From: Bacteroidota bacterium
GTDB lineage: Bacteria > Bacteroidota > Ignavibacteria > Ignavibacteriales > Ignavibacteriaceae
DNA: 42,770 nucleotides
Assembly (NCBI GenBank): GCA_023475265.1
Contig: JAMCWE010000073.1
Coordinates: forward strand, 6,357-49,126
Direction of reading: 5' to 3'
This document shows positions 13,538-32,424 of this stretch, piece by piece; position 1 is the stretch's first letter, and each line of letters begins with the position of its first letter. The position numbers and the translations under genes are program-made. The notes under the pieces were generated by a model. It saw nothing but the letters and a program-made list of their open reading frames with translations. It had not been told where the DNA came from and did no database searches.

Positions 13538-15735
13538 TGATTAAATTTTTTTTAGTTCTAATAATCATAAGTCTTTTTTCTTATACATTCGCGCAACGCC
13601 AAAATCCGGATCATTTGTATACTACATTAACAAACGATACAACCTTTAATTCTTATGTACCGGATGCTAAGCCCCAAACTGTTCGTTACGATTTATTTGT
13701 TAGAGATACTACAGTAAATTTTACGGGTGAAGAAGCACATGCGATTTCTACTAACGGTTCTGTCCCCGGTCCAACTTTATATTTTACCGAAGGCGACACT
13801 GCGGAAATATTTGTTCATAATGAAATGGACAAACCGACAACCATCCATTGGCATGGAATGATTATTCCAAATCAATACGACGGTGTTGAATATCTTACGC
13901 AAACTCCTATCGAGCCGGGGCAAACATTCTTATACAAATTCCCGATTATTCAAAGCGGCACTTACTGGTACCATTCGCATTCCGGTTTACAAGAGCAAAG
14001 CGGGTTAAACGGTGCATTGATTATTTATAAGCGTCACGAACCATCGATGAGAGAATACACATTGCTGCTAAGCGATTGGACAAATGAAAATCCTTACGAA
14101 GTTGAACGCTCCTTACACATGGCAACAGATTGGTACGCAATTGAGAAAGGCAGTGTTCAAAGTTACGGCGAAGCTCTTATGCAAGGTTATTTTGGGACGA
14201 AAGTTACCAGCGAGTGGAAGCGAATGCTTTCTATGGATGTAAGTGACGTATATTATAACGCATTTCTTACAAACGGAAAAATCCGGCAAACTTTAAGGGA
14301 TGCAAAGCCCGGCGAGAAAATCAGACTTAGAATTATTAACGGCTCTTCATCTACATATTTCTGGCTTCAATTTGCCGGAGGAAAAATTACCGTAGTTGCC
14401 AGCGATGGCAGCGATGTTGTTCCCGTAGATGTTGATAGAATGATTGTCGGCATTGCCGAAACTTACGATGTAATTGTAACGGTTCCCGACGGCGGCAAGT
14501 CCTATGAATTTCGCGCAACATCCGAAGATAGAACTCATCATACTTCTCTATGGCTCGGCAGCGGTGAGAAAGTTTCTGCGCCAACTCTTCCAACCTTAGA
14601 ATATTTTGAAGGCATGAAGATGATGAACAGTATGATGAACATGGATGGCTCAATGAATAATATGGGGATGCAGATGAGCCTTCAGCAAATGGATATGAAC
14701 ACCGTTATGTATCCCGAAAACCTGGACACGACTACTACTCTTAATTATGCTATGCTTAAAGCTCCATTTAAAACGACACTACCTAAAGGTCCTTTAAAAG
14801 TTTTGCACTTCAATCTCACCGGCAACATGAACCGCTATGTTTGGAGTATAAATAACAAAACTCTCTCCGAATCCGATAAGATATTAATCAAAAAAGGAGA
14901 GAATGTAAAAATTATTTTATACAACGGTACTATGATGCGACATCCGATGCATCTGCATGGGCATTTCTTCAGAGTACTAAATGGACAAGGAGATTATGAT
15001 CCGCTAAAAAATGTTCTGGACATTATGCCGATGGAAACAGACACGATTGAATTTGCCGCCCGTTATTACGGCGATTGGTTTTTCCATTGCCACATTCTTT
15101 ACCACATGATGAGTGGTATGGGTAGAATTTTCAGCTATGAAGATTCTCCGCCTAATCCATTTTTGTCCGATCCTGAAAAGGCGATACAAAATTTATACGA
15201 TGGTGATAGAATGTTTCACTTGGGCGCGCGGGTTGGTTTAGAAAGCAGCGGCAGCGATGGCGAAGCGATGCTTGCAAATACCCGCTATGAATTCCGGACT
15301 GATTGGCATCTCGGTATAAACAGTATGAAGGGCTACGAGGATGAAACAGAATTCGGCAGATATTTAGGCGTGATGCAATGGTGGTTTCCTTACATAGGCT
15401 GGGATGTTAGGTATTGGAATACACATGAACGCGGGGAAAATATGTTCGGTCAAGCTAATACAGCCGACAAGCGCAAAGTTTTAATTGCAGGGGTTAGGTA
15501 CACTTTACCTATGCTTGTGTTTGCCGATTTCAGAGTTGACACACAAGGCAAATTAAGATTTCAATTAAGCAGGGATGACATACCGGTTACTGCACGTCTG
15601 CGTTTTAATTTTATGGTCAATACCGATAGAGAAAGTATGGTCGGATTCAGATACATTATAACAAAATACTTCGGCATCTCAACACATTATGACAGCGATA
15701 TGGGCTTTGGCGCCGGCATAACTATAAATTACTGA
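13537..15735 (+). CDS. CopA/PcoA-type multicopper oxidase fused to a C-terminal beta-barrel
   Basis: 732 residues; the start is the ATG overlapping the previous stop, with AAGGAG 11 nt upstream. A signal peptide ends near residue 19 (TFAQ). Copper motifs are HWH 104-106, HSH 146-148, HPMHLHGH from 469, and HCH 517-519 with HMMSGM. A Met-rich insert lies near 360-390 (GMKMMNSMMNM, MGMQMS). After about residue 555 the oxidase ends and a region follows with alternating strands (LGARVGLESS, YEFRTDWHLGIN, YIGWDVRYWN, MVGFRYIITKYFGIST) ending GAGITINY, like a CopB/outer-membrane barrel. It would oxidise Cu+ to Cu2+ in the periplasm. The barrel may hold it at the outer membrane, joining CopA and CopB functions in one chain. 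Confidence 0.93.
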   Translation: MIKFFLVLIIISLFSYTFAQRQNPDHLYTTLTNDTTFNSYVPDAKPQTVRYDLFVRDTTVNFTGEEAHAISTNGSVPGPTLYFTEGDTAEIFVHNEMDKPTTIHWHGMIIPNQYDGVEYLTQTPIEPGQTFLYKFPIIQSGTYWYHSHSGLQEQSGLNGALIIYKRHEPSMREYTLLLSDWTNENPYEVERSLHMATDWYAIEKGSVQSYGEALMQGYFGTKVTSEWKRMLSMDVSDVYYNAFLTNGKIRQTLRDAKPGEKIRLRIINGSSSTYFWLQFAGGKITVVASDGSDVVPVDVDRMIVGIAETYDVIVTVPDGGKSYEFRATSEDRTHHTSLWLGSGEKVSAPTLPTLEYFEGMKMMNSMMNMDGSMNNMGMQMSLQQMDMNTVMYPENLDTTTTLNYAMLKAPFKTTLPKGPLKVLHFNLTGNMNRYVWSINNKTLSESDKILIKKGENVKIILYNGTMMRHPMHLHGHFFRVLNGQGDYDPLKNVLDIMPMETDTIEFAARYYGDWFFHCHILYHMMSGMGRIFSYEDSPPNPFLSDPEKAIQNLYDGDRMFHLGARVGLESSGSDGEAMLANTRYEFRTDWHLGINSMKGYEDETEFGRYLGVMQWWFPYIGWDVRYWNTHERGENMFGQANTADKRKVLIAGVRYTLPMLVFADFRVDTQGKLRFQLSRDDIPVTARLRFNFMVNTDRESMVGFRYIITKYFGISTHYDSDMGFGAGITINY

Positions 15736-15949: not shown

Positions 15950-16066
15950 TATATCATAATGCAAAAAATAAGAAATGACAATAGAATGGAAAAATTTAAA
16001 AATAAGATTTCACCTCATTTTCAACTTAAAGTACTTTTACAATTTCGGACTTACAAGGAGAGTCAC

Positions 16067-17365
16067 GTGGGAAGAAAATCAAATTTAATTTATATGTCAG
16101 CCGTAATTCTTTTAATATTTTTATTTGTACCGCTCTCGATTTATTCTCAAACGGCGGATGGTAATGACAGCCTAAATAATCTAGTAAAAGAGGCGCTTCA
16201 AAATAATCCTCAGTTAAAGGCGGCGCGCAGCCAAACTCTTGCTCAGCAAACTAAAGTTAAACAAGTTACTGCATGGGATCCGCCGCAGGTTGGAATTTCT
16301 TTCTATCAAACGCCTATCCAATATTTGAATCCAATTACAAATGGAATGGAGACCGATTACTATGTTCAGCAGATGTTCCCATTTCCCGGCAAGCTCGGCA
16401 ATATGGGCAACGCCGCATCAAGCAATGCTAAAATGTACGGCGAGCAGTATAACGCTCTTAAGAATAAAATTATTAACGATTTAAAATCTAATTATTACAT
16501 GCTTTACTTTGTTGAGAAGAGGATTGAAATCAACAAAGAAAATCAAGACCTCCTTAAGCAGCTTAATGCTATTGCATTAAAGCAGTATGAAGTCGGCACC
16601 GGCAAGCAAGCTGATGTATTAAGAGCGCAGACAGAGCTTTCAACCTTGGTTAATGATGGAATAAATCTTCTTAAGGAAAAAAGAAATGTTGAAACGATGA
16701 TAAACACAATCCTAAGCCGCCCGGTAAATTCTCTGCTGCCGGAGATTAAAGACATTCAAGATACGATTCCAAACTGGACTTACGACCAGCTTGCGGATTT
16801 AGCTTTTGAAAACAGACCGGAGATAAAAGCAATGCAGTTCAATGTTGAAATGAATAAGTCCGAATTGAAAGCATCTAAGCTTGAATACTATCCCGATTTT
16901 ATGGTGCAGCTTATGTATAAAAATATGGCAAACACATCTAATGATTTTTGGTCGGCGATGGTTGGCGTAAATATTCCGCTTGCGTTTTGGTCCAAGGATA
17001 AATTTACCGGAAAGGTTCAGGAGAATGAAATCAACATCAGCACAGCGCAGGAACAATTAAGCGCAATGAAAAATATGGTTGCAAGCGATGTTCAGAATGC
17101 GTTGATAAAAATTGAGAGCAATAAAAATTTAATCGACCTTTATAAGAGCACTGTAATACCGCAAGCAGAGCAGACGCTTCAAACTACCCTTGCCGAATAT
17201 CAGACCGGCAAAACGGAATTCTTAATGTTCATCGATGCGTACAAAATGGTTTTAATGGCTAAGCAGGATTATTACATGTCCGAAATGAGCTACATGCAAA
17301 GCCAGGCGTTGCTTGAGCAGGCTGTCGGCTTAAGTATAAGTCAAATAAAAGATGAAATTAAATAG
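16067..17365 (+). CDS. cusC: CusC-type outer membrane efflux protein (TolC family)
   Basis: 432 residues from the GTG at 16067. This start is preferred over an upstream in-frame ATG (15959) because AAGGAG lies 6 nt before it, it opens directly into a signal peptide (LIYMSAVILLIFLFVPLSIYSQ), and 15959 falls at the expected transcription start of P2. The mature part has two outer-membrane-efflux repeats of coiled helices (NNPQLKAARSQ, LKQYEVGTGKQADVLRAQTEL, NRPEIKAMQFNVEMNKSEL, LAEYQTGKTEFLMFIDAYK). It forms the trimeric exit duct for the CusBA pump. It is 21 bp ahead of cusB in one operon. Confidence 0.93.
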   Translation: MGRKSNLIYMSAVILLIFLFVPLSIYSQTADGNDSLNNLVKEALQNNPQLKAARSQTLAQQTKVKQVTAWDPPQVGISFYQTPIQYLNPITNGMETDYYVQQMFPFPGKLGNMGNAASSNAKMYGEQYNALKNKIINDLKSNYYMLYFVEKRIEINKENQDLLKQLNAIALKQYEVGTGKQADVLRAQTELSTLVNDGINLLKEKRNVETMINTILSRPVNSLLPEIKDIQDTIPNWTYDQLADLAFENRPEIKAMQFNVEMNKSELKASKLEYYPDFMVQLMYKNMANTSNDFWSAMVGVNIPLAFWSKDKFTGKVQENEINISTAQEQLSAMKNMVASDVQNALIKIESNKNLIDLYKSTVIPQAEQTLQTTLAEYQTGKTEFLMFIDAYKMVLMAKQDYYMSEMSYMQSQALLEQAVGLSISQIKDEIK

Positions 17366-17386: not shown

Positions 17387-19069
17387 ATGAAGAAAATAAT
17401 TATTACCGGTATTATAAGCATTATAATTGGATTGGGCGCCGGCTGGTTTATTTTTAATAATCATAACTCAACAACAAACAGTAAAACCAGTGAAAAGAAA
17501 ATTCTTTATTATCGTTCGCCTATGAATCCGACGGTAACATCAAAAGTACCGATGAAGGATCAGATGGGAATGGATTACGTTCCCGTTTATGCAGATGACG
17601 GCGGAAGCGGCGGCGAAAGAAAAATTGCGTACTACCGTTCTCCGATGAATCCAACAGAAACATCTCCTGTTCCCAAAAAAGATGAAATGGGAATGGACTA
17701 TGTTCCCGTTTATGCAGACCAGGTTGGCACGGATCAAATTCATATTGACCCGGCAACACAGCAGAACATAGGCGTAACAACAGAGATTGCTGAAAAAAGA
17801 AAATTGTCACGCAACATCAGAACCACAGCTAATATTACTTACGATGAAACAAAGCTGTACACTGTCTCAACCAAAATTATGGGCTACATTGAAAAATTGT
17901 TTGTCGATTACACCGGTCAATACGTTCGCAAGGGGCAGCCGCTTCTAAGTATTTACAGTCCCGATTTAGTTAGTACTCAAGAAGAATATCTTCAAGCATT
18001 AAAATACAGGAAAGAAATTTCCGGCAGCGGTTCTTTAATTAGCAAGCAAGGAGCCGATCAATTAGTTGAAAGCGCAAAGAGAAGATTGCTTTACTGGGAT
18101 ATCTCCGAAAAAGAAATTAAAGCTCTTGAACAGAGAGGTACGCCGCAAAAAACTATGACAATCTTTTCTCCCGCTGACGGAATCGTTGCAGACAAAATGG
18201 TAATCAACGGTCAAAACATAATGCCCGGAATGGCGCTTTATAAAATTGCCGACCTCACCACAGTTTGGGGGCTTGCTCAAATTTATCAATATGAGCTTCC
18301 TTGGATTAAACTTGGAGATAAGGTTAACTTGCAGCTTTCTTACATGCCCGGGAAAACTTTTCAAGGAAGAATAACTTACATTTATCCTTATCTCGATACC
18401 GATTCTAAAACTGTTCAAGTAAGAATTGAAATACACAATTCAAGTAATTATGAATTCAAGCCAGGCATGTTTGCAGATGCCGATATAAAATCACCGATTA
18501 CGCTTGAGACTGTTGCCGTTCCTAATCAAGCGATAATTCACACCGGAACAAGAGACGTTGCAATTATATCTCTCGGCAACGGTTACTTTGAACCAAGGAC
18601 TGTAGTGCTTGGCGTACGCGGCGACAGCGGTTATGTTCAAGTTTTGCAAGGCATCAAACCGGGAGATGAAGTCGTAACTTCTTCTCAATTCCTGCTTGAT
18701 TCCGAAAGCAATTTAAATGCAGCTTTAAATAACATGACGCTTGGCAGCTCGCAGGCAGATTCAACTACGCAAAATAATTCAACCAACAATAAGGCTGAGG
18801 ATAAAACTAAAAAGCCGGTTTCCCCAAAAGATAATATGAGCGGTATGCAAATGATCGGAAGTCATTCTGCGCCAGTCGCATATAAAGGTGTAATTGATGT
18901 GAAGGCAATTGATGATAACATGGACGGCAAAGTTTATCAATGTCCTATGGACTTCAATGTTCTTTCCGATAAGCCGGGAATCGATCCGAAATGCGGAATG
19001 AAACTTCAAGAGGTCACCATTCAGCAAGCTGTCGACAATTTGAAATCGCATGGCTTTAAGGTTAAATAG
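17387..19069 (+). CDS. cusB: CusB-type periplasmic adaptor with three heavy-metal-binding modules
   Basis: 560 residues; GGAG before the ATG. An N-terminal anchor (IIITGIISIIIGLGAGWFIF) is followed by two tandem metal-binding domains at about 40-69 and 82-110, each running from YYRSPMNPT to MGMDYVPVY. The membrane-fusion core (about 120-435) has barrel-sandwich and beta-barrel signatures (LYKIADLTTVWGLAQIYQYE, VPNQAIIHTG). A C-terminal module (about 495-560) has YQCPMDF and PKCGMKL. Family knowledge: adaptor between the RND pump and the outer-membrane duct, accepting Cu+ from chaperones. The C-terminal module is almost the same as the separate small protein encoded at 22886-23104. Confidence 0.94.
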   Translation: MKKIIITGIISIIIGLGAGWFIFNNHNSTTNSKTSEKKILYYRSPMNPTVTSKVPMKDQMGMDYVPVYADDGGSGGERKIAYYRSPMNPTETSPVPKKDEMGMDYVPVYADQVGTDQIHIDPATQQNIGVTTEIAEKRKLSRNIRTTANITYDETKLYTVSTKIMGYIEKLFVDYTGQYVRKGQPLLSIYSPDLVSTQEEYLQALKYRKEISGSGSLISKQGADQLVESAKRRLLYWDISEKEIKALEQRGTPQKTMTIFSPADGIVADKMVINGQNIMPGMALYKIADLTTVWGLAQIYQYELPWIKLGDKVNLQLSYMPGKTFQGRITYIYPYLDTDSKTVQVRIEIHNSSNYEFKPGMFADADIKSPITLETVAVPNQAIIHTGTRDVAIISLGNGYFEPRTVVLGVRGDSGYVQVLQGIKPGDEVVTSSQFLLDSESNLNAALNNMTLGSSQADSTTQNNSTNNKAEDKTKKPVSPKDNMSGMQMIGSHSAPVAYKGVIDVKAIDDNMDGKVYQCPMDFNVLSDKPGIDPKCGMKLQEVTIQQAVDNLKSHGFKVK

Positions 19070-19234: not shown

Positions 19235-22200
19235 ATGTTAGAAAAAATAATAGAGTATTCAGTTAAGAACAGATTTCTCGTAATCCTTGCAGTCGTCTTC
19301 CTAATGGGCTGGGGAATTTATTCGCTGTACAATATTCCTGTAGATGCAATACCGGACTTAAGCGATGTTCAGGTAATTATCTACACAAAGTATGAGGGAC
19401 AGTCGCCTCGAATAGTTGAAGACCAGGTAACTTACCCGCTGACAACAGCGCTTGTATCGGTGCCTGGCGCAAAGGTTGTTAGAGGATATTCATTCTTCGG
19501 CTACTCGCTTGTTTATGTAATCTTCAAGGACGGCACAGACCTTTACTGGGCACGAAGCAGAGTTCTTGAATATCTAAACTATGCTGCAAAAAGATTGCCC
19601 ACCGGAGTTGTTCCGACTTTAGGACCCGATGCAACCGGCGTAGGCTGGGTGTTTGAATATACATTATCTTCTAACAAACGCTCACTGGCAGATCTTCGTA
19701 CAATACAGGACTGGTACTTAAAATATCAGCTTAGCACAGTTCCGGGTGTTGCCGAAGTTGCAAGCATCGGCGGATTTGTAAAACAGTATCAAGTTACTGT
19801 TGACCCGGCAAAATTATTGGCTTACAATATTCCCTTAAGCGATGTTGAGATGGCAATAAAGAAATCGAATAATGATGTAGGCGGCGAGACTATTGAAATG
19901 GGTGAATCGGAATTTATGATAAGAGGCTTGGGGTATATTAAGTCAATTCAGGATGTTGAGAACATACCAGTAATGGTTGATAAAAAAACTAACACTCCGG
20001 TTTATATAAAAGACATTGCCAACGTTGCCTATGGCCCGGAAATGCGCAGAGGCTTAGCCGAATCCGACGGCAAAGGCGAAACCGTAGGCGGAATTATTGT
20101 AATGCGCTACGGAGAAAATGCGCTTTCGGTTATCCAAGGCGTTAAGAAGAAGCTTGCGGAATTAAAGCAAGGGCTTCCGCCGGATGTTAAGATTACTCCG
20201 GTCTATGATCGCTCCAGTTTAATTGAAAGAGCAATCGATACTCTTAAAGATAAATTAATAGAAGAAATTCTAATCGTTGCATTCGTTTGTATTTTATTCT
20301 TGATGCACTTCCGCAGCGCCTTTGTGGCAATCTTTACTCTGCCGACGGCTATATTAATGGCATTCATCGTAATGAGAGCTCAAGGAATAAATGCAAACAT
20401 CATGTCTCTCGGCGGAATTGCAATCGCCATAGGGGCTATGGTTGATGCCGCTATAATAATGATTGAAAACGCTCACAAGCATATTGAGCACGATATGCAA
20501 AAGCCGCCGGAACAAAGGCGCGAGCGCTGGCAGTTAATTATTGAAGCTGCAAAAGAAGTCGGTCCATCTTTGTTTTATTCTCTGCTGGTAATAACGGTTT
20601 CCTTCATCCCGATATTTACAATGGAAGCTCAGGAAGGGAAATTATTCAAGCCGCTTGCTTTTACTAAAACATATTCGATGGCAGCAGCGGCAATCTTATC
20701 AATAACCCTTGTACCGGTATTAATGGGTTACTGGATTCGCGGAAATATAAAGCCGGAAGAAAAAAATCCTATCAATAAATTTCTAATTAAAATTTATCAC
20801 CCTGTAGTGAACTTTGTAATTAAGCATTGGAAGTATGTTATTATTACGACGCTTGTTTTGATGGCGCTAACCTACATCCCGTTTTCAAAGCTTGGCAGCG
20901 AGTTTATGCCTCCGCTCTACGAAGGCGATTTGCTTTACATGCCGACTACACTTCCAGGTATATCAATTACAAAGGCAAGAGAGCTGCTTCAGCAGGCTGA
21001 TAAGATTATCGCATCTTTCCCGGAGGTGCATCATGTATTTGGCAAGATTGGAAGAGCGGAAACCGCAACCGACCCTGCCGGTCTTGACATGACCGAAACA
21101 ACCATCATGCTTAAACCAGAAAGTGAATGGCCCAAGGGAATGACGGTTAAAAAGCTTATCGACCAGATGAATGAGGCTGTCCATTTTCCTGGTGTTACTA
21201 ACGCCTGGACAATGCCTATAAAAACCAGAACTGATATGCTTAGCACCGGTATTAAAACTCCGGTTGGTATAAAAATATCAGGTCCTAATCTTGATACGCT
21301 TCAATCTATTGGCGAAAAGGTTGAAGCTGTTATGCGCACTGTGCCCGGTACACTTAGCGCTTATGCTGAAAGAACTGTTGGTGGTAATTATGTTGATATA
21401 AATATCAATCGCGAAGAAGCTGCAAGATATGGACTCACGATTCAAGATGTGGAAGATGTAATTCAATCTGCAATGGGCGGGATGAATGTTACTACCACTG
21501 TTGAAGGGCTTGAGCGTTTCCCGGTTAATTTAAGATATGGGCGCGAACAAAGAGATAATGTGGACGATTTGAAAAGAGTTCTCGTTCCTACTCCAATCGG
21601 TGCTCAAGTACCGATTGGACAACTTGCCGACTTTACCGTGCACAAAGGTCCAATGGTTATTAAAACCGAAGGCACCAGACCTAATGCATGGGTTTATGTT
21701 GATCTGAAAACCTCAGACATTGGAACTTACGTAAAGAACGCGCAAAGAATTGTTGCACAAACTATTCATCTGCCCGTCGGCTACAGCCTCGTATGGAGCG
21801 GTGAGTTTGAGTATATGCAGCATGCCAATCAGCGTTTGATGGTTGTTATCCCGATGACCTTATTCATTATTTTCTTGATCATCTACTTAAATACAAAGTC
21901 ATTAAAAAAAGTTGCAATCATCTTTTTGGCAGTTCCATTCTCGCTCGTCGGAACTTTTTGGCTGCTATTCATTTTAGGATATAACCTAAGTATCGCTGTT
22001 TGGGTTGGTATTATAGCGCTTGCCGGGCTTGACGCCGAAACCGGCGTTGTTATGCTTCTTTATCTTGATGTTGCTTACAAAGAATGGCAGGATAAAGGAA
22101 TGATGAGAGGTATAAACGATTTAATCGACTCAATTCATCACGGCGCAGTAAAAAGAGTAAGACCTAAAATAATGACGGCTTCAGTAATTGTTGCTGGCTT

Positions 22201-22387
22201 AATTCCGATTATGTGGAGCAACGGCGCCGGAGCAGATGTAATGAAGAGAATCGCTGCACCGATGCTTGGCGGTGTCGTTACTTCAGTGTTAATGGAACTT
22301 GCCGTCTACCCGGTCATTTATTACCTGTGGAAATCTTATGAGCTTAAAAAAGAAGCTAAGAAAAACGGATTACTTTTAGAAAATTAA
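19235..22387 (+). CDS. cusA: CusA-type heavy-metal RND efflux pump, Cu+/Ag+ type
   Basis: 1050 residues from the ATG at 19235, with GGAG 6 nt upstream (a TTG just before it is not needed). RND layout: one helix, a large periplasmic loop, six helices, a second loop and five helices. The three copper-binding methionines of E. coli CusA (573, 623, 672) have exact counterparts at M569 (LLYMPTTLPG), M619 (LDMTETT) and M668 (RTDMLSTG), with the same spacing. Helix-4 acidic residues appear in GAMVDAAIIMIEN. It is a proton-driven export of Cu+ or Ag+ from periplasm or cytoplasm. The 165-bp gap from cusB holds a repeat. The Met triad argues against a Zn/Co pump. Confidence 0.96.
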   Translation: MLEKIIEYSVKNRFLVILAVVFLMGWGIYSLYNIPVDAIPDLSDVQVIIYTKYEGQSPRIVEDQVTYPLTTALVSVPGAKVVRGYSFFGYSLVYVIFKDGTDLYWARSRVLEYLNYAAKRLPTGVVPTLGPDATGVGWVFEYTLSSNKRSLADLRTIQDWYLKYQLSTVPGVAEVASIGGFVKQYQVTVDPAKLLAYNIPLSDVEMAIKKSNNDVGGETIEMGESEFMIRGLGYIKSIQDVENIPVMVDKKTNTPVYIKDIANVAYGPEMRRGLAESDGKGETVGGIIVMRYGENALSVIQGVKKKLAELKQGLPPDVKITPVYDRSSLIERAIDTLKDKLIEEILIVAFVCILFLMHFRSAFVAIFTLPTAILMAFIVMRAQGINANIMSLGGIAIAIGAMVDAAIIMIENAHKHIEHDMQKPPEQRRERWQLIIEAAKEVGPSLFYSLLVITVSFIPIFTMEAQEGKLFKPLAFTKTYSMAAAAILSITLVPVLMGYWIRGNIKPEEKNPINKFLIKIYHPVVNFVIKHWKYVIITTLVLMALTYIPFSKLGSEFMPPLYEGDLLYMPTTLPGISITKARELLQQADKIIASFPEVHHVFGKIGRAETATDPAGLDMTETTIMLKPESEWPKGMTVKKLIDQMNEAVHFPGVTNAWTMPIKTRTDMLSTGIKTPVGIKISGPNLDTLQSIGEKVEAVMRTVPGTLSAYAERTVGGNYVDININREEAARYGLTIQDVEDVIQSAMGGMNVTTTVEGLERFPVNLRYGREQRDNVDDLKRVLVPTPIGAQVPIGQLADFTVHKGPMVIKTEGTRPNAWVYVDLKTSDIGTYVKNAQRIVAQTIHLPVGYSLVWSGEFEYMQHANQRLMVVIPMTLFIIFLIIYLNTKSLKKVAIIFLAVPFSLVGTFWLLFILGYNLSIAVWVGIIALAGLDAETGVVMLLYLDVAYKEWQDKGMMRGINDLIDSIHHGAVKRVRPKIMTASVIVAGLIPIMWSNGAGADVMKRIAAPMLGGVVTSVLMELAVYPVIYYLWKSYELKKEAKKNGLLLEN

Positions 22388-22700: not shown

Positions 22701-22889
22701 ATGTTGAACGAAATGAAATCCCGTTTTTCGGGAAAAACCAATTTAATAAAAATAGTATTTCTATCTTTTTTTGTCTTAGCATTTTCTGCCTCGTTGTCGC
22801 TTGCGCAGGATTCGATGCAAACAAAGACTAAGAAGCATAAATCCGAAATGAAGATGGATATGAAAGGAATGAAGGAGATGAAAATATGA
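22701..22889 (+). CDS. Small secreted Lys/Met-rich peptide
   Basis: 62 residues with AAGGAG before the ATG. A signal peptide (LIKIVFLSFFVLAFSASLSLAQ) leaves a mature peptide of about 26 residues rich in Lys and Met (KSEMKMDMKGMKEMKI). Its TGA overlaps the ATG of the next gene (ATGA). It reads like the leader and linker of the following metal-binding domain, which itself lacks a signal, so the two may once have been, or may still be, one protein joined by a frameshift. Confidence 0.65.
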   Translation: MLNEMKSRFSGKTNLIKIVFLSFFVLAFSASLSLAQDSMQTKTKKHKSEMKMDMKGMKEMKI

Positions 22890-23104
22890 AATCAAACCAT
22901 TCGTCTCCAATTGCATATAAAGGAGTAATTGATTTAAAATCAATCGATGATAATAGAGACGGCAAAGTCTATCAATGCCCGATGGATTTTAATGTCTTAT
23001 CCGATAAGCCCGGAGTCGACCCGAAGTGCGGAATGAAGCTGAAAGAAGTTTCGCTTGAACAGGCTAAGAAGAAGCTTACTATGCATGGCTTTAAAGTAAA
23101 GTAA
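22886..23104 (+). CDS. Stand-alone heavy-metal-binding domain, paralogue of the CusB C-terminus
   Basis: 72 residues, matching the last 66 residues of CusB almost throughout (AYKGVID, IDDN, DGKVYQCPMDFNVLSDKPG, DPKCGMKL, HGFKVK). The CPM and CGM motifs should bind soft metal. It starts at the ATGA overlap with the secreted-peptide gene, with AAGGAG 9 nt upstream. Without a signal peptide it would stay in the cytoplasm, unlike the CusB copy. The repeat that follows it also matches the repeat that follows cusB, so domain and repeat look duplicated together. Confidence 0.82.
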   Translation: MKSNHSSPIAYKGVIDLKSIDDNRDGKVYQCPMDFNVLSDKPGVDPKCGMKLKEVSLEQAKKKLTMHGFKVK

Positions 23105-23245: not shown

Positions 23246-24436
23246 ATGTTAAAGAAATTTTTTACTTTATCGTTTTTTGTATTCATAATATCAATAATCT
23301 ATTCTAATACAACTTCTGCAATACCGGCATTCTCACGGAAATACAAAGTTGGCTGCGATATGTGCCATACGGTTTATCCTCAGTTAAATTCTTTCGGAAG
23401 AGATTTTAAAAATAATGGATTTCGCACGCCGGATGAGATGGTTTCAACGTACAAAGCAAAGAGCTTCTGGGAGCAGGGCTTTGGCGAAGTGCCGCTTGAT
23501 TTGCACGGAAAAATCAATCAAGAGTTTTATCCGAACAACCAGCACATTGGAACAGAGACAGGCATAGATGAAATTCAGCTTAATGCCGGAATTAACTTTT
23601 CACAAAAGGTTGCCTTCTACTTACACACCCATCTTTGGGAATCGGGACATGCGGGTGAGCCTTTAGCAATAGAAGTTAGAATAAATGATCTCTTTGGTAC
23701 AAGCTTAGTAAATCTTCGCGCAGGGCAATATGAACTGCCGCTTTCATTCTCACCCGAAATTGAAAGGCTGATGGCGTTCAACTACTTAATTTTTAGCCAG
23801 ACAATCGGCGGCAATTCATTCTCTATTGACCAGCCGCAGCTTGGTTTGGAACTATCCGGCGATCTTGGAAATGACTTCTGGTACTGGGCAGGCATGGTTA
23901 ACGGCAATGGTTTTGAAACGGACCCTGTTACCGGCTTGTTTGATAACAACCCCGCAAAAGATTTCTACTTCCGCATCGCAAAAAACTTTGATGAAAGTAC
24001 CGTTGGTTTATTTGGTTACGTTGGTAATAATTCGGTTTTCCCGGATAACGTTAGCTTTAGCCATACCGATAATTTTATTAGAACCGGCGGAGATATTCAT
24101 CTGGTTCTGCACGATGTCTGGGATCTCAAGACAAGCATTGTCTATGCCCAGGACAACAATTATGATGGGCTGAAAAATAAGACTTCTTTTTACGGCGGCT
24201 TTGTTGAGTGTAATTATTTCCCGGCTGATAGGTGGGTAATTGTCGGTAGATATGAAATAGTTCAATTAAAGGATGCTGCTGTTTCGCCGGATCCCGAAAC
24301 GCCGAAAACAAGCTGGGCCATTACTCCTGGTTTCCAATATTTAATTCTTCCAAATGTAAAAGTTGGATTGGAATACCAAGTGCGGCAAACGGCTTCTGCC
24401 AACCAAGCATTAGCGCTGTTACATTTCGTCATTTAA
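23246..24436 (+). CDS. Cyc2-like fused monoheme cytochrome c / outer membrane porin
   Basis: 396 residues with GAGG before the ATG. A signal peptide ends near 24 (NTTSA). A short heme segment follows: AIPAFSRKYKVGCDMCHTVY with CxxCH at C37-C41, then FGRDFKNNGF. The remaining 330 residues are beta-barrel-like, with alternating aromatic strands, periodic turns and the C-terminal end LLHFVI. The order A-P-FAR-C-x-x-CH-P-L-FGR-FK-NG then barrel is that of Cyc2, the outer-membrane Fe(II) oxidase. It could pass electrons across the outer membrane; the donor (Fe(II), Cu(I) or other) is unknown. Similar cytochrome-porins occur in bacteria not known to oxidise iron. It sits between metal-binding genes and cytochrome c maturation genes. 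Confidence 0.75.
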   Translation: MLKKFFTLSFFVFIISIIYSNTTSAIPAFSRKYKVGCDMCHTVYPQLNSFGRDFKNNGFRTPDEMVSTYKAKSFWEQGFGEVPLDLHGKINQEFYPNNQHIGTETGIDEIQLNAGINFSQKVAFYLHTHLWESGHAGEPLAIEVRINDLFGTSLVNLRAGQYELPLSFSPEIERLMAFNYLIFSQTIGGNSFSIDQPQLGLELSGDLGNDFWYWAGMVNGNGFETDPVTGLFDNNPAKDFYFRIAKNFDESTVGLFGYVGNNSVFPDNVSFSHTDNFIRTGGDIHLVLHDVWDLKTSIVYAQDNNYDGLKNKTSFYGGFVECNYFPADRWVIVGRYEIVQLKDAAVSPDPETPKTSWAITPGFQYLILPNVKVGLEYQVRQTASANQALALLHFVI

Positions 24437-24455
24437 GAAAGAAAGGATTATCATT

Positions 24456-24796
24456 ATGAAAGAAATAAAAGCATATATAAGACTGGATAAAGCTGATGAC
24501 GTAATTTTCGAGCTTGAGCATGCCGGCGTTAAAGGTCTCACAGTTATTGATGTCTCAGCAGTAGGCGCTGGGCAGACCCGGAAAAATCCCAACTCTCGCT
24601 TGAGTATTGCGAAAAATATTGCAGCAGCACGAAGTTAGAGCTTATTTGCATGGATGAGGAGCTTGTAAAATTTATAAACATAATTTTGAATAAAGCTCAT
24701 ACCGGCAGAAAAGGCGACGGCAAAATATTTGTCTCCGATATTTCCGATGCAATAAGCATTAGAACAAAGGAACATGGGATAAAAGCAATAACATAG
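24456..24796 (+). pseudogene. PII-family (PII-NG-like) regulator with a single-base frameshift
   Basis: AAAGGA precedes the ATG. The first frame gives MKEIKAYIRLDKADDVIFEL...GVKGLTVIDVSAVGAGQ, a PII N-terminus, but it stops at 24636-24638. From about 24600 another frame continues EYCEKYC, KLELICMDEELVKF, HTGRKGDGKIFVSDISDAI and SIRTKEHG to a TAG at 24794. Joined, this is a full PII of about 113 residues missing one base. The uridylylated Tyr of the T-loop is absent, as in the PII-NG group that is linked to heavy-metal RND pumps. It is either a true pseudogene or a sequencing error. Confidence 0.8.
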
Positions 24797-24820
24797 CGTT
24801 TGAAGAAAAGGAATCAGAAA

Positions 24821-25381
24821 ATGAAATGTAAAAGTTGTGGTTTTGATAATGACGTCAACAACAAGTTCTGCAGCAACTGCGGAAGTGAACTGCATTCTTT
24901 TCAAGTTAAAGCTGCAAAGGCAAAGCCAAAGTTTTATTCCGTCAAGAAAAAAAATAAGAGAAATATTCACAGCTTAAAAAGCAATACTCCTAATCTTAAG
25001 CCTTTATGGATTACAGTTGGAGTTATTATTGTTTCAATTTTTATTGCTATTTCATTCGATCTTGTTTTCCATAAATATCCTAATAGTGAAAGGTTAGCTG
25101 TTGAGAAAAAAAGTTCTAATTCTGCTGTTGAAGCTCAAGTTACCGCAATTGCTTCTAAGTTTGTTTGTTCATGCGGAACAACTGAATGCAACTTTACATC
25201 GTTGGAATCTTGCACTTGTAGTACCGCTGCCGAAGAAAGGCAGCTAATCAGAACTGAGCTCGAAAAAAATGAAAAGCTCGATGACATTGTTGTTGACCTC
25301 GCAAATAAGTACGGTAATCTTAAACCGGAATTTGCATTTAAATATAAGGTTGAGCGTAGCAGAGTTTGGAATTCAAATTAA
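24821..25381 (+). CDS. Zinc-ribbon, membrane helix and CcmH-like domain fusion
   Basis: 186 residues from the ATG at 24821 (AGGA 8 nt upstream; a TTG at 24800 is rejected). An N-terminal zinc ribbon (C3-x2-C6, C17-x2-C20, CSNCGSEL) is followed by a membrane helix (about 62-82, LWITVGVIIVSIFIAISF). A periplasmic domain (about 105-168) has IASKFVCSCG, then STAAEERQLIRTELEKNEKLDDIVVDLANKYGNL, the pattern of CcmH/NrfF heme-lyase subunits. The usual CxxC is changed to C116-S-C118 with extra Cys at 123, 131 and 133. With the TPR protein and CcmF downstream it would join apocytochrome handling to heme attachment. A zinc ribbon on a CcmH-like domain is unusual. Confidence 0.65.
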   Translation: MKCKSCGFDNDVNNKFCSNCGSELHSFQVKAAKAKPKFYSVKKKNKRNIHSLKSNTPNLKPLWITVGVIIVSIFIAISFDLVFHKYPNSERLAVEKKSSNSAVEAQVTAIASKFVCSCGTTECNFTSLESCTCSTAAEERQLIRTELEKNEKLDDIVVDLANKYGNLKPEFAFKYKVERSRVWNSN

Positions 25382-25403
25382 ATAATATTTTAGGAAGGAT
25401 ACA

Positions 25404-25889
25404 ATGAAACGTATAATTTGTTTATTGGCGCTGGGTCTTGTTTTTGCTATAAGCGAAGTCTTTGCCCAGCATAATATGATGGGCAGTATGTCTGACAATG
25501 GCAACAAAAAAGATCCTGCGTTGGCAGCGCTGCTTTCAATCCAGCCTTTTCCTGTTGCTGCAGGAAATTTCTACTCAGGCAATTGGGAACGTGGAATTCT
25601 CTACACGACGGCAGAAGTTGCTCTTTTTATACCGGCAATGATTTTGCTGGGGCGCAACGGCTGGGGCATGCACAATTATAATTATTACAACGGAACGGAT
25701 AATCGCCTTTCTTGGACAGTTGAAGAACGAAACCAGTTCTATTATTTGCTGACGGGATATATCGTCGTTAAAATTGTAAGCGCATTCGATGCCGGGTATT
25801 CAGTGGAAGAATATAATAAGCATTTCTCGATGAGCTATAATGCTCAAACTAATTCAGAGATGCTTTCATTTAAGATTCCACTTAATTAA
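25404..25889 (+). CDS. Membrane/secreted hypothetical protein with Met-rich start
   Basis: 161 residues with AGGAAGG upstream and a signal peptide (ICLLALGLVFAISEVFAQ). A short His/Met segment (HNMMGSMSDNG) is followed by DPALAALLSIQPFPVAAGNFYSGNWERGILY and a hydrophobic helix (VALFIPAMILLG), then a second helix (YLLTGYIVVKIVSAFDAGY). The DPALA-LS-G-FY-G-KG layout is like DUF5683/TM2-type membrane proteins. The function is unknown. It lies between the CcmH-like gene and the YHS gene. Confidence 0.65.
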   Translation: MKRIICLLALGLVFAISEVFAQHNMMGSMSDNGNKKDPALAALLSIQPFPVAAGNFYSGNWERGILYTTAEVALFIPAMILLGRNGWGMHNYNYYNGTDNRLSWTVEERNQFYYLLTGYIVVKIVSAFDAGYSVEEYNKHFSMSYNAQTNSEMLSFKIPLN

Positions 25890-25956
25890 TAACAGCATAA
25901 AAGAAACTAAGGCGAAACTTTATAATAAAGATAAAAAACGAAAGGAAGATGCTTGT

Positions 25957-26181
25957 ATGGTAAAAGACCCGGTTTGCGGAATGACGATAAGAGAAGAAGA
26001 TGCCGCCGGAAGCATCACTTATAAAGGAGTAAAATATTACTTCTGCGCGCCTGTTTGCAAAGTAACCTTTTTGCATGAGCCGAAAAAATATGCTTTGCAA
26101 AATACTTCCGGCGCTAAAAGCAAAAAACAAAAAGATAATGTCAGTCATAATGGAAAGGATGTAAAAAATGAAAACGATTAA
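25957..26181 (+). CDS. YHS-domain metal-binding protein
   Basis: 74 residues from the ATG at 25957 (AAAGGAAG 8 nt upstream); the longer reading back to 25840 overlaps the previous gene and is rejected. The YHS domain fills residues 1-45: VKDPVCGMTIREEDA, YKGVKYYFCAPVCKVTF, HEPKKY. The Lys-rich tail is probably flexible. YHS domains are common in Cu+ ATPases and bind metal through Cys. No signal peptide, so it is cytoplasmic. Its end overlaps the start of the PII-like gene by 14 bp. Confidence 0.85.
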   Translation: MVKDPVCGMTIREEDAAGSITYKGVKYYFCAPVCKVTFLHEPKKYALQNTSGAKSKKQKDNVSHNGKDVKNEND

Positions 26182-26467
26182 AGCTGGTGTAAATACAACC
26201 AGGGTTCATTGGGTTGTTGAAAAATTACAAGCGCTGGGTATTCAAGATATAAGTGTAACAGAACATTTTAAACCTTTATCCCAAATTTCCGAAATGACAT
26301 TTGTATGCGATGATTATATAGTTAGCCATATCAAAAAAGTAATTCATAAATTCGGTACATGTGGTAACGCAGTGGATCATTACGTGTTCGTTGAAGACTT
26401 TGAAAACCATTCTAATTTCCAGGCAAATCGCCAGGATGATAAAAATTTATTTTATCCAAATTGTTAA
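26168..26467 (+). CDS. PII-superfamily-like small protein
   Basis: 99 residues, not closely matched to a named family. The start MKTIKAGVNTTRVHWVVEKLQALGIQDISVTE follows the beta-alpha-beta pattern of PII. Later MTFVCDDYIVSHIKKVIHKFGTCGNAVDHYVFVEDFE matches the second half (TG-GD-IFV of PII), while the T-loop is mostly missing. AAAGGATG lies inside the YHS gene and the two overlap by 14 bp. It could be a metal- or nucleotide-sensing PII-like protein for the pump or cytochrome system, possibly standing in for the frameshifted PII at 24456. Confidence 0.5.
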   Translation: MKTIKAGVNTTRVHWVVEKLQALGIQDISVTEHFKPLSQISEMTFVCDDYIVSHIKKVIHKFGTCGNAVDHYVFVEDFENHSNFQANRQDDKNLFYPNC

Positions 26468-26477
26468 AGTTGAAAAA

Positions 26478-27353
26478 GTGAAACTTCTGCAAAAAATATT
26501 ATTAATTAGACGACTGTTCTTGCTGTCTGCAATATTGATTTTTAGTTGTGTAATAATAGCTGCCGGTTCAACTGTTTTTGCACAAGGCGGTAAAGACACT
26601 ACATCTGCTACAATTGAAAAACTTCCGGTGGTTGAAAGTGATGTGTCAAACGTAGAACAATATTATTCAAACATTTTGAAAAAGCATCCTGATGACTCGG
26701 TTGCTTTAAATAATCTTGGCATGTTATATCTTCAGCTTGGTAAAACGAAAGAGGCAAAGGAATATTTATTGAAAGCCGTAAAGCTTTATCCGTGCGATTA
26801 CCTTTCTCATTATAATCTTGGTACGTTCTACGGCTACCTGGATGATATGCAGGATGCGGTTACCCATTTAATTGAATCGGCTGAATTAAATCCTAGAAGT
26901 GATGAAACTTTTTCAGCTTTGGGCACTTTTTATTTTCGACAAAATAAATTAAGCGATGCTGAAAAATCATTTTCGAGCGCGCTTAAAATTAATCCGGAAA
27001 ATGAAAATACACTTTTCGGAATGATGGGCGTTTATCAAGCCAAAAATCAAATCGATTCCGCTCTGAAAATAGGCAAAAAACTACAAAGGGTTAATAATCG
27101 TTATCAGCAGCTTCATCTAGTTTTGGCAAACTTGTACTTATTAAAAAATAATTTGCCTGAAGCGCTTGCAAATGCAAATGAAGAACAATCGCTGTACCCT
27201 GATGAACCTGAAAGCTATTACATGCTTGCGGTAATTTATAATAAAACCGGCAGCGAGGCAAATTACCGTGCAATGATTATGAAGCTGAGAGAATTAATTA
27301 AAACAAAAGATTCGGCTCAGCCGTTATTGGATAGTTTATTAAGAAAAAAATAA
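26478..27353 (+). CDS. TPR protein, likely CcmI-like cytochrome c maturation partner
   Basis: 291 residues from a GTG at 26478; the upstream reading overlaps the PII-like gene. The start has only a weak AAAG site, so it is less sure. A signal/anchor helix (LFLLSAILIFSCVIIAAGSTVFAQ) is followed by five to six TPR repeats (SVALNNLGMLYLQLGKTKEAKEY, YLSHYNLGTFYGY, ETFSALGTFYFRQNKLSDAEK, PESYYMLAVIYNK). TPR proteins hold apocytochrome c at the heme lyase in System I. It is 18 bp ahead of CcmF and after a CcmH-like gene, which supports this. Confidence 0.7.
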   Translation: MKLLQKILLIRRLFLLSAILIFSCVIIAAGSTVFAQGGKDTTSATIEKLPVVESDVSNVEQYYSNILKKHPDDSVALNNLGMLYLQLGKTKEAKEYLLKAVKLYPCDYLSHYNLGTFYGYLDDMQDAVTHLIESAELNPRSDETFSALGTFYFRQNKLSDAEKSFSSALKINPENENTLFGMMGVYQAKNQIDSALKIGKKLQRVNNRYQQLHLVLANLYLLKNNLPEALANANEEQSLYPDEPESYYMLAVIYNKTGSEANYRAMIMKLRELIKTKDSAQPLLDSLLRKK

Positions 27354-27371: not shown

Positions 27372-29498
27372 ATGTTTGGAAATGTATTTATAATTTTAGC
27401 TCTTATTGCCGCGATATATAGCGTCGTAATGTATTATCAAGCTTCTAACGGAAATGAAAGAGCGCTCGTCTTTGCGAGATACGGCTATCATACAATGGCC
27501 GCACTTATCATAAGTGCATGCTTGTTTTTTCTTTACATAATTGTCACTCATCAGTTTCAATACAAGTATGTTTTCGATTATAGCAATGCTGACCTTTCTA
27601 CCGGTCTGCTGCTATCAACTTTTTATGCCGGGCAGGAAGGCAGCTTCCTTTTATGGCTGGTTTTGGCTGTTGTAGCCGGCATCGTCTTACAAAACTACAC
27701 ATCAAAAAAGCAAGGACTTGAACCGGCTTTTATGATGATTTATTCTCTCGTCCTTGTTTTCTTAATTGCTATGGTTACGCCGTTTTTTAAAAGTCCTTTC
27801 AACTTTATCTGGTTAGAAGCAAGCTATACAAATATCAAATACTTCAATCAATCGTTCTTAAATTTTCCCTTCTTACAGAATTTCATTTTTACCGACTCCA
27901 AATCGAATCAATCTTATGTTCAAATGGGACCGGATCTTTTTGCAGCTCTTAAATCAAATGGAATTGCCATCGGAGATTTTTTGATAAAGGGGAAAGGACT
28001 TAATCCACTTTTACAAAACTTCTGGATGGAAGTTCATCCGCCTATATTGTTTCTTGGATTTGCACTTTCTATTGTGCCTTTTACTTTTGCAGTTTCCGCT
28101 TTAATAAAAAATAAATATGACCAATGGATAAAATTAGCTTTGCCATGGACAATCGCCGCATCGGTAATTTTAGGGCTTGGTTTGATGATAGGCGGATACT
28201 GGGCTTACGGCGTCCTCGGCTGGGGCGGCTTCTGGGGCTGGGATCCTGTTGAAAATGCAAGCCTTATTCCCTGGCTTATAAGTGTTGCACTTATTCATAC
28301 AATGCTAATTCAAAAGCAAACTCAAATATCGAATAAGCTCGGTCGCTTGGCTAAAACAAATCTTGTTCTTGCTGTGTTAATGTTCATCTTAGTTGTTTAC
28401 AGCACCTTCTTAACAAGAAGCGGAATTTTATCTAAAGCGTCAGTCCATTCATTTGAAGACCCCGGCGCTGCTGTATATGTTTTTCTCATTCTCTTTATTC
28501 TTACTTTCACGTTTATCGGGCTTGGCGGAGTTTATTACCGTAGAAAATCTTTAACCGGTTTAAACAACATTAAAGAAAAATTTCTTTCAAGGGAAAACGG
28601 ATTGCTTTACGGCTCTCTGATTCTTGTCGCATCAGCTTTGGTTGTTTTTGTCGGCACTTCCGCTCCGATACTTGGCGAGTCTGTCGAAACAAGTTTCTAC
28701 AATAAAATGAATCTTCCGTTGGTTATAATTATGGGTTTGCTCATCAGCTTAAGTTTATTTTTAAGATGGAGGGAAACCGATGGAAATAATTTTGTTAAAG
28801 GCTTAATTCCATCGCTTATAATCTCAATTCTTTTGAGTGTTGCAGCGTCCATTTTATTAGGGATAAATGATTTTCTATTCGTCTTTTTCTTCTTTTCAAT
28901 AATATTTACAATTATTGTAAACATTCAGATGCTAATCAGAGTTTTTAGAAATGGATTTTATTTCTGGGGCGGACACTTAGCGCATATCGGTTTTGCTCTT
29001 TTCTTGTTCGGTGTCTTAGCATCGGGCACCTTAAGTAAGTCGCAGCAAATAGATCTGCCGCTCGGTATTAAAACCAAAGTTTTAAATTTTAATCTAACCT
29101 TTGTTGGAGGCAGAGCAATTAGCGGAAGTGATAAGTATGCATTTGATATAAATGTTAATGATAAAAACAAATCTTATACCGCTTCACCAATTATGTTTAT
29201 TTCAGACTTTAATAACGAGTTGATGAGAGAGCCGTATATATTAGAAGGCTTTACTAATGACTTATATTTTTCTCCAATCTCTTATGTTGATAAAAATGAA
29301 AATAATCCGGCAAAGGTTGAACATATTTCTCTTAAAGAACAGAATAACGCAGCGGCAGTTCCTTCGGAAATATTAACGGTAGAAATAAGTACAAAGCCTT
29401 TCATAAGCTTTGTCTGGATAGGAGTTTTTATTATGTCAATTGGTTTCGTTATAGTTGTTTTAAGACGAAACCGCGAGAACAAAATTTTAAATCTATAG
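27372..29498 (+). CDS. ccmF: CcmF-type cytochrome c heme lyase
   Basis: 708 residues with about 14-15 membrane helices. The WWD heme-handling motif is WGGFWGWDPVENASLIPW. GQEGSFLLWL and WMEVHPPILFLGF are typical of CcmF, the latter carrying a heme-binding His. A periplasmic C-terminal domain (about 560-670) precedes the last helix. It attaches heme to CxxCH cytochromes in the periplasm. The window's own substrates are the Cyc2-like protein, the cytochrome at 29796 and the heme kinase at 38084. CcmA-E are not in this window. Confidence 0.95.
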   Translation: MFGNVFIILALIAAIYSVVMYYQASNGNERALVFARYGYHTMAALIISACLFFLYIIVTHQFQYKYVFDYSNADLSTGLLLSTFYAGQEGSFLLWLVLAVVAGIVLQNYTSKKQGLEPAFMMIYSLVLVFLIAMVTPFFKSPFNFIWLEASYTNIKYFNQSFLNFPFLQNFIFTDSKSNQSYVQMGPDLFAALKSNGIAIGDFLIKGKGLNPLLQNFWMEVHPPILFLGFALSIVPFTFAVSALIKNKYDQWIKLALPWTIAASVILGLGLMIGGYWAYGVLGWGGFWGWDPVENASLIPWLISVALIHTMLIQKQTQISNKLGRLAKTNLVLAVLMFILVVYSTFLTRSGILSKASVHSFEDPGAAVYVFLILFILTFTFIGLGGVYYRRKSLTGLNNIKEKFLSRENGLLYGSLILVASALVVFVGTSAPILGESVETSFYNKMNLPLVIIMGLLISLSLFLRWRETDGNNFVKGLIPSLIISILLSVAASILLGINDFLFVFFFFSIIFTIIVNIQMLIRVFRNGFYFWGGHLAHIGFALFLFGVLASGTLSKSQQIDLPLGIKTKVLNFNLTFVGGRAISGSDKYAFDINVNDKNKSYTASPIMFISDFNNELMREPYILEGFTNDLYFSPISYVDKNENNPAKVEHISLKEQNNAAAVPSEILTVEISTKPFISFVWIGVFIMSIGFVIVVLRRNRENKILNL

Positions 29499-29795: not shown

Positions 29796-30323
29796 ATGAA
29801 AAAATATCTAATCGGCGCTGGCGCCGTAATTGTGCTTCTAATAATTGGCGGACTCATTTATATGTATTCTGGAATATTTGATATCAGCGCACGGGTTCCT
29901 CACGACCCAATAACATTGTGGGCGATGAATACCGTCCGGGATAATTCTATTAAACATAATGCGGATAATAATATTAAAACTCCCGATCTTAACGATTCCG
30001 ATCTTGTAAAGATGGGCTTTGTTCATTACCGTGAAATGTGCGTCGGCTGCCACGGCGGTCCCGTAATTGAACGGAGTGAAATTGGGCAAGGGCTTTATCC
30101 AAAAGCTCCATCGCTTGCAAGGGTTGCCAACGATTGGACTCCGCAGCAGCTTTTTTGGATTACTAAAAACGGCTTAAAGATGACCGGCATGCCGGCATTC
30201 GGTCCAACACATTCTGATGAAATGATTTGGGCAATTGTAGCATTTACTAAAAAGCTTCCGACTCTAACTAAAGAACAATATCAAACTCTTGATAAAGAAA
30301 CTCAAGGCGAAAGTGACGAATAA
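29796..30323 (+). CDS. Membrane-anchored monoheme cytochrome c
   Basis: 175 residues with GAGGTGG upstream. An N-terminal helix (YLIGAGAVIVLLIIGGLIYMY) remains as anchor. A class I cytochrome domain has C82-V-G-C85-H86 and a likely axial Met132 in TGMPAFG; DEMIWAIVAFTKKLP forms the last helix. It carries electrons at the periplasmic face, perhaps between the oxidase or cytochrome-porin and respiration. The next gene begins 4 bp after its stop. Confidence 0.9.
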   Translation: MKKYLIGAGAVIVLLIIGGLIYMYSGIFDISARVPHDPITLWAMNTVRDNSIKHNADNNIKTPDLNDSDLVKMGFVHYREMCVGCHGGPVIERSEIGQGLYPKAPSLARVANDWTPQQLFWITKNGLKMTGMPAFGPTHSDEMIWAIVAFTKKLPTLTKEQYQTLDKETQGESDE

Positions 30324-32385: not shown

Positions 32386-32424
32386 CTTTACAATAATTAA
32401 ATTTATCGATTGGAGAATCAAAAA

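Follow-up and report, generated by a model that had tools for sequence, protein, structure and literature searches.

The window, i.e., the whole stretch of DNA that was analysed (42,770 nucleotides from a Bacteroidota bacterium of the Ignavibacteriaceae), carries a copper island on its forward strand, and within this island lies the gene of a cytochrome-porin that is called Cyc2L here. The features are given below with their positions in the window; G018 and G021 are the two other genomes of the genus in which orthologs of Cyc2L were found.

8878..10635, + strand: sensor histidine kinase
11384..12763, + strand: sigma-54 response regulator
13019..13537, + strand: DUF3347 protein
13507..15735, + strand: multicopper oxidase, nearest to the copper-resistance type (TIGR01480, 387 bits, below the cut-off of 479)
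15959..17365, + strand: CusC-type outer-membrane factor
17387..19069, + strand: CusB-type adaptor with a heavy-metal-binding domain
19235..22387, + strand: CusA-type RND pump of the Cu(I)/Ag(I) type (TIGR00914, 1241 bits)
22886..23104, + strand: remains of a gene for a small protein with a heavy-metal-binding domain; G018 has this frame open (135 aa)
23246..24436, + strand: cytochrome-porin Cyc2L, 396 aa with an ATG start (Pfam BBP2 at E 9.8e-7, structural model, porin folds, tree); signal-like N-terminus by eye, heme segment at about residues 25-77, 16-strand barrel at 84-395
23354..23368, + strand: predicted heme-binding CDMCH, residues 37-41 of Cyc2L (from the sequence)
24456..24802, + strand: P-II-like gene, frame broken in the window, whereas G018 and G021 have it open at 113 aa (the G021 protein matches Pfam P-II)
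24800..25381, + strand: CcmH-like protein with a fused zinc ribbon (the matches to Pfam CcmH and Zn_Ribbon_1 are below cut-off)
25404..25889, + strand: 161-aa protein of no family, absent from the G018 and G021 gene lists
25840..26181, + strand: YHS-domain protein, present in G018 and absent from the G021 gene list
26168..26467, + strand: p99, a 99-aa module protein of no family
26361..27353, + strand: TPR protein in a CcmI/NrfG-like position (Pfam TPR)
27372..29498, + strand: heme lyase of the CcmF family, metal-island clade (the Pfam domains CcmF_C and Cytochrom_C_asm exceed the cut-off; WWD-type motif WGGFWGWD)
29796..30323, + strand: 175-aa mono-heme cytochrome c whose N-terminus is hydrophobic (Pfam Cytochrome_CBB3 at E 5.1e-16), a candidate electron partner
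32410..32934, + strand: Met-rich protein, conserved in the module
32937..33872, + strand: conserved module protein of 311 aa, by eye probably a barrel of the outer membrane (no Pfam match)

The genes in front of Cyc2L define the copper setting. The initial annotation had placed cusCBA there, and CusC, CusB and CusA were all recovered, the pump being of the Cu(I)/Ag(I) type: it scores 1250 bits against solved CusA chains versus 560 against ZneA, which is CzcA-like. Furthermore, the three methionine positions that we take to be the Cu(I) site of CusA align in the window pump. From the subfamily score and these residues together, copper or silver specificity of the pump is likely. The island has in common with the CusCBA/multicopper-oxidase resistance islands a Cu(I)/Ag(I)-type pump, a copper-type oxidase, heavy-metal-binding domains and a two-component system, but unlike them it also carries a heme lyase module, and it encodes two c-type cytochromes. 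With regard to regulation, no sigma-54 site was found for the island: a relaxed pattern has one match, inside an opposite-strand ORF, versus 1.55 expected, and a fuller pattern with up to 2 mismatches has none versus 4.5 expected; thus, the sigma-54 regulator is tied to the island by position only. The window holds no tRNA and gave no Rfam match at the gathering score. The broken P-II-like frame (24456-24802) and the heavy-metal-binding gene (22886-23104) reflect either real decay or an assembly error.

Cyc2L had been proposed at 23246-24436, with one CxxCH in a Cyc2-like order, and its ORF was found on the + strand at exactly these coordinates. After a hydrophobic N-terminus that by eye ends near residue 24, the protein reads AIPAFSRKY, KVG, CDMCH, TVY and PQL, followed by NSFGRDFKNNGF. 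The CxxCH is the only one in the protein, and the PxL begins 4 residues past the His of the heme site. The relaxed pattern AxPxF[AS]R[QK][TY]-x3-CxxCH matches once when the window is translated in all six frames, and it occurred in none of 200 codon shuffles. The strict published motif, AxPxFAR[Q/K][T/Y], is missed by Cyc2L at one position, A30S, and the same applies to all three orthologs. Among the 115 other family rows, the strict motif is present in 84 and the Ala-or-Ser form in 89; the Ser option is needed by 5 of them, and 26 have neither form. Residues I26, P27, F29, R31, C37, C40 and H41 are invariant in the 67 aligned rows, an invariance that is partly by construction because the members were collected through that motif.

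The orthologs of Cyc2L in G018 and G021 have 88% and 80% identity, respectively, and the lineage was found in three of the 13 genomes of the genus, the one of the window included. The dN/dS values for the two ortholog pairs that involve the window are 0.04 and 0.07, with dS saturated, and dS is infinite for the third pair. These identities and the low dN/dS support the coding status of the gene, and Cyc2L is under purifying selection. Beyond the orthologs, identity among the matches listed is mostly 25-30%, the best being 35-37% over 248 to 323 query residues; values up to 55% among these matches are confined to short N-terminal stretches. The motif scan of genome contigs gave at least 594 stretches, of which 543 were confirmed, and the named loci are the best 80. 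A2 took 66 of these 80, the other 14 having been dropped for lack of a clean ORF or as near-duplicates or long acidobacterial forms. Cyc2L has no NCBIfam match, no PHROGs match and no convincing PDB match by sequence, and the plasmid collection holds no relative of it at E 1e-5. The Pfam family BBP2 covers part of the barrel only and, at E 0.01, matches 7 of the 67 family members.

Four histidines of Cyc2L (H87, H127, H129 and H135) are shared by all three orthologs. Elsewhere in the family (115 rows), position 87 is His in one row, position 127 in one and position 135 in two, whereas His is commoner at position 129 (7 of 65 rows). A lineage-specific His metal site was considered on this basis and rejected, because 3 of 50 divergent columns changed to His versus about 1.3 expected (9 His in 337 residues), which is within chance.

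Structure prediction for a 16-strand barrel had been put forward as a check, and a barrel was indeed predicted. The AlphaFold2 model, obtained with an alignment of 67 sequences, has a pLDDT of 83.1 and a pTM of 0.80; residues 84 to 395 form the 16 strands of the barrel, and a partly helical N-terminal segment ahead of them bears the heme site, with residues 21-26 and 68-77 at pLDDT below 50. The Cyc2-type layout suggested at the outset, a heme site followed by a barrel, is borne out by heme site, PxL, length and model. Foldseek returned porins generally, with DcaP as the best (E 2.9e-12) and OprP fourth by E-value. A second structural aligner placed OprP first (Z 26.6, rmsd 3.0, 301 residues aligned) and OprO next (Z 26.3, rmsd 7.7, 312 aligned), with the remaining porins from Z 24.5 downward. 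The structural homologs of the Cyc2 of Mariprofundus ferrooxydans PV-1 (Cyc2PV-1) are the OprP and OprO barrels as well, as reported in PMC8406198. Cyc2L is confidently modelled as a standard 16-strand porin fold, OprP/OprO-like.

This predicted fold also suits a porin in which the heme is mainly structural or sensory and which serves as a channel for a metal complex or an anion in the efflux route. The efflux setting agrees with such a role, and a small barrel-like protein is likewise conserved in the module. However, the heme ligand and its flanking residues are invariant in the 67 members (partly by construction), and a cytochrome c accompanies the gene in the module of all three genomes; a role mainly as a channel is considered quite unlikely.

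Membership of the Cyc2 family was assessed with the published criteria, which in PMC8406198 include length, motif, heme site and PxL. Cyc2L has the length (396 aa, at least 365 being needed), the heme site and the PxL, together with the predicted 16-strand barrel. It shares with the PV-1 protein, as described in PMC8406198, one CxxCH behind AxPxF(A/S)R, the PxL, a length of at least 365 aa and an OprP/OprO-type barrel, and it differs from it by Ser in place of Ala in the motif, by a long branch of its own and by the copper-island setting; the likeness is drawn from the published description of the PV-1 protein.

The position of Cyc2L among its relatives was studied with trees of different size. 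The first tree comprised 118 of 183 candidates, reduced at 65% identity. The 42-row set kept the window and FARQT groups in full and drew rows at random from the remaining groups, after the removal of four long-branched rows; for the more careful 45-row tree, two further rows were dropped and five plasmid proteins were added. Among these, the Caballeronia row starts, as annotated, past the heme site, and FAAQT is the reading in that of Acidithiobacillus; both are of the FARQT type by clade. The 45-row tree has four blocks, namely FARQT (support 100/100), group A (100/99), group B (98/99) and block C (93/95). The Cyc2L lineage, with support 100/100 and a stem of 1.66, falls outside all four and stands beside B at just 80/84. 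In the AU test on this tree, joining the Cyc2L lineage to FARQT (p 0.17), to group A (p 0.38) or to block C (p 0.36) was not rejected, and therefore no placement among the blocks is claimed. The quick 42-row test gave p 0.20 for the Cyc2L lineage with FARQT; its rejection of the join with group A was discarded, because the labelled A rows are not one clade there. On sequence grounds, Cyc2L is regarded as part of a separate, small and long-branched lineage of the cytochrome-porin superfamily, relative to the groups sampled in the tree. Neither of the refuting outcomes named beforehand, a place outside the Cyc2 family and the lack of a predicted barrel, was observed.

Two sets of relatives are informative for their gene partners. 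The FARQT-type proteins encoded on proteobacterial plasmids (Caballeronia, Ideonella, Paraburkholderia, Methylocystis, Acidithiobacillus ferrooxidans), like two paralogs that the genome of the window encodes, are by sequence of the same architecture class as Cyc2L, but they form a separate 100/100 clade that leaves the Cyc2L lineage outside, the sister relation having the AU p of 0.17 given above. In the 5 plasmid records examined, of 9 that match a FARQT-type paralog, an annotated c-type cytochrome lies directly downstream in four and two genes upstream in the fifth. The likeness of this layout to the operon of the window is loose, since the mono-heme cytochrome c of the window is placed about 5.4 kb downstream, past the CcmF module. 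Elsewhere in the genome of the window (L041:1640-10076, G000:C116), a FARQT-type cytochrome-porin gene directly precedes an operon that encodes a molybdopterin subunit and NrfD, alternative-complex-III-like by eye; this gene and operon are a candidate iron-oxidation route.

The second set consists of the FARKY-type cytochrome-porins (Bacteroidota, Acidobacteria, Zixibacteria, Nitrospina and others), which have a near-identical heme motif and mostly 25-30% identity over much of their length. The FARKY genes of group A, among the loci L088-L167, are paired with an upstream 4-5-heme cytochrome, whereas the Cyc2L of the window is without one. At least three CxxCH were counted in the same-strand upstream gene (within 600 bp) for 32 of the 34 group A genes that have such a neighbour versus none of 30 non-A genes, in a count where an ORF was recognisable in 74 of the best 80 loci, groups were set by motif pattern and the non-A set includes Cyc2L's own ortholog.

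This pairing of one superfamily arm with multiheme cytochromes, a layout that also fits two-way traffic, lends some credit to an outward flow of electrons, from the cytochrome c through Cyc2L to an external acceptor or metal, in which case the protein would be a reductase. The direction of electron flow is not readable from the sequence of Cyc2L. An outward flow is judged improbable: Cyc2L has one heme, no multiheme protein is encoded in the window, and the Cyc2 members tested in print oxidise iron, according to PMC8406198.

Comparison of the three genomes showed which neighbours are constant. The gene order of G018 is as in the window, minus three window-only stretches (10922-11320, 25404-25889 and 30289-32385). 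In G021, the cytochrome-porin heads the downstream set on a 19.9-kb contig where no cus and no YHS gene was seen; the far end of this contig has a DUF302 gene, together with genes that, judged by eye, are also seen in other metal islands. The cytochrome c and the CcmF genes are downstream of the cytochrome-porin on the same strand in all three genomes, and the dN/dS of the cytochrome c is about 0.04. Thus, the tie of the cytochrome-porin to cusCBA that the initial annotation had drawn proved loose: because the G021 copy, one of three, has these downstream partners and stands without cus, the constant partners are the downstream genes and the copper association is not constant. In G016, the downstream module was found on two short contigs and is broken where the cytochrome-porin would sit. 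The dS versus G018 also varies along 23246-33872, from about 1.8 for Cyc2L to 1.3 for CcmF, 0.5 for the cytochrome c and 0.4 for the barrel protein, and this unevenness suggests a mosaic history.

Cytochrome maturation genes had likewise been noted downstream. Genes of this type are present, namely CcmF, the CcmH-like protein, which is below the Pfam cut-off, and the TPR protein, but this CcmF is not simply to be taken for the maturation gene of Cyc2L, since its clade is mostly cytochrome-free. The relatives of the zinc ribbon/CcmH-like protein in L267 and L295 pass both Pfam cut-offs. The window CcmF has in common with the CcmF/NrfE heme lyases the CcmF_C and Cytochrom_C_asm domains, the WWD-type motif, whose form WGGFWGWD is found in its relatives too, and the adjoining CcmH-like and TPR proteins. 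Against NCBIfam TIGR00353 (ccmF/nrfE), it scores 250 bits, below the cut-off of 569, and the gene is therefore called a CcmF-family paralog and not CcmF or NrfE proper. It also differs from the CcmF linked to ccmB, ccmC and ccmE in that it falls in a separate clade found in metal-efflux islands, mostly with no local cytochrome. The genome of the window has four CcmF genes, only one of which (L263) occurs together with ccmB, ccmC and ccmE. A small membrane protein that looked CcmE-like by eye was rejected as such, as it has no Pfam CcmE match.

The comparison included 45 CcmF genes; they come from genomes of the family and the order and, outside these, from one more genome of the class; among multi-copy genomes of other orders, G139 was examined. 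The genes fall into two clades, each with support 100: 24 canonical copies, a chosen sample, with ccmB, C or E in the stretch, and the other 21, including that of the window. The non-canonical rows are full-length copies from the examined genomes with more than one CcmF; the 295-residue fragment G007:C77, the G016 pieces and the short contigs L269, L260 and L274 were left out. The L269 contig, which has no markers and was provisionally labelled metal, grouped with the canonical clade in an earlier tree. A same-strand RND metal pump lies within 7 kb of 16 of the 21 metal-island-clade genes versus none of the 24 canonical ones, counts that are not all independent, given the near-identical islands L261/L297 and L300/L304/L306. 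The metal-island CcmF loci besides the window include L259, L261, L262, L265, L266, L270, L292, L293, L295, L297, L299, L300, L302, L304, L306 and L308. The remaining five genes of the clade have lesser signs nearby: in L270, P-II and a heavy-metal-binding protein, with a fragment of a pump gene 7.3 kb away; P-II and a small CusB-matching protein in L292; a heavy-metal-binding protein by eye in L267; P-II and DUF302 in G021; and, in L268, DUF302 and the beginning of what by eye is likely a metal ATPase.

No CxxCH protein of at least 70 residues was found in 16 of the 20 metal-clade stretches (6 to 20 kb, window excluded). Of the four exceptions, two contain the orthologs of Cyc2L, a third encodes a CxxCH protein of 198 aa, and the fourth a protein with nine hemes. 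Because the clade is mostly without a local cytochrome, this CcmF belongs to metal islands independently of any cytochrome-porin, rather than being the private maturation gene of Cyc2L, and its presence nearby is no argument for a cytochrome role of Cyc2L. Cyc2L and its cytochrome c are an addition to a metal island, so far seen in one genus. Furthermore, the islands are mobile. L261 and L297 (G000:C270 and G128:C96) share a stretch of 10,550 bp, with genes for a CzcA-like pump, a P-II-like protein, a CDF-like protein (by eye) and CcmF, that is 99.5% identical between genomes of two families, which indicates recent horizontal transfer.

Mobile islands accrete genes, and Cyc2L might then be a divergent Cyc2 that serves ordinary respiratory Fe(II) oxidation for energy, its adjacency to cus being incidental. 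Besides the mobility of the related islands, its family membership and the G021 copy without adjoining cus speak for such a function, and iron oxidation and reduction genes found with FeGenie in Ignavibacteriales at one site are already in print, according to PMC8478452. However, the genome already encodes two FARQT-type proteins, one of them beside the molybdopterin/NrfD operon, so that Cyc2L need not be its iron oxidase, and Cyc2L is found with metal-island genes in all three genomes. Ordinary iron respiration is regarded as possible, though somewhat unlikely.

The preferred reading, to which slightly less than an even chance is given, places Cyc2L in the outer membrane, as a cytochrome-porin that forms its own lineage within the Cyc2 superfamily and exchanges electrons with the cytochrome c of the operon, most likely inward from Fe(II) or Cu(I). 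Computation shows the gene with its heme motif and barrel fold, the purifying selection, the neighbouring genes and the copper type of the pump; we infer the outer-membrane location, the heme attachment, a single transcript, the electron partner, the direction and the substrate. In this reading, a single c-type heme in the N-terminal segment would lie on the periplasmic side of the 16-strand porin or plug it. This heme would receive one electron from Fe(II) or Cu(I) at the barrel, and the electron would pass on to the cytochrome c of the operon and then to the respiratory chain; of the two metal ions, Fe(II) has the precedent. The benefit for the island could be that a toxic reduced metal is held oxidised at the cell surface, beside the periplasmic multicopper oxidase and the Cus efflux. 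The potential of Cyc2PV-1 is +208 mV (PMC8406198) and that of the Cu(II)/Cu(I) couple is +160 mV (PMC7558416); thus, Cu(I) would be energetically allowed as a donor, if the heme of Cyc2L resembles that of Cyc2PV-1.

According to the review PMC7558416, which cites Durand et al. 2015, cytochrome c biogenesis is a target of periplasmic copper toxicity, and a spare heme lyase copy under metal control that could sustain cytochrome maturation would fit this statement. A more far-reaching version, considered rather unlikely, is that a cytochrome-porin lineage of iron respiration was taken over for copper defence. As a Cu(I) oxidase of the outer membrane, the protein would pass electrons from toxic Cu(I) to the cytochrome c of the operon, inside a metal-efflux module whose own-clade CcmF would keep heme attachment going while copper poisons the housekeeping system.

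Cyc2 genes serve as iron-oxidation markers. A Cyc2-type lineage inside a copper island is a warning against reading the substrate from motif and fold alone; with one heme, one porin and one cytochrome c, it is also a compact system for asking if the family can oxidise Cu(I). The heme lyases of the metal islands, mostly cytochrome-free, offer a testable link to the copper toxicity on cytochrome c biogenesis stated in PMC7558416. In the open-licence literature, judged by titles and abstract openings, no description was found of Cyc2 with copper or cusA, nor of CcmF with copper or metal-efflux islands; the CcmF clade of the metal islands may be a more general novelty than Cyc2L.

Two further observations concern cytochrome-porins of other genomes. 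The genomes of L201-L215 and L221-L233 (f37 and f35) look like green sulfur bacteria, with the chlorosome family PF02043 present in all six tested; those listed have one to four cytochrome-porin matches, and the proteins examined are FARKY- or WARK-like and not of the FARQT type. On a contig labelled Patescibacteria (L096:904-11287), CusC/B/A-like genes, a P-II-like gene and a likely metal ATPase gene, the latter two by eye, precede a B-type cytochrome-porin gene on the same strand; this is a second co-occurrence of a cytochrome-porin and metal efflux, on another branch.
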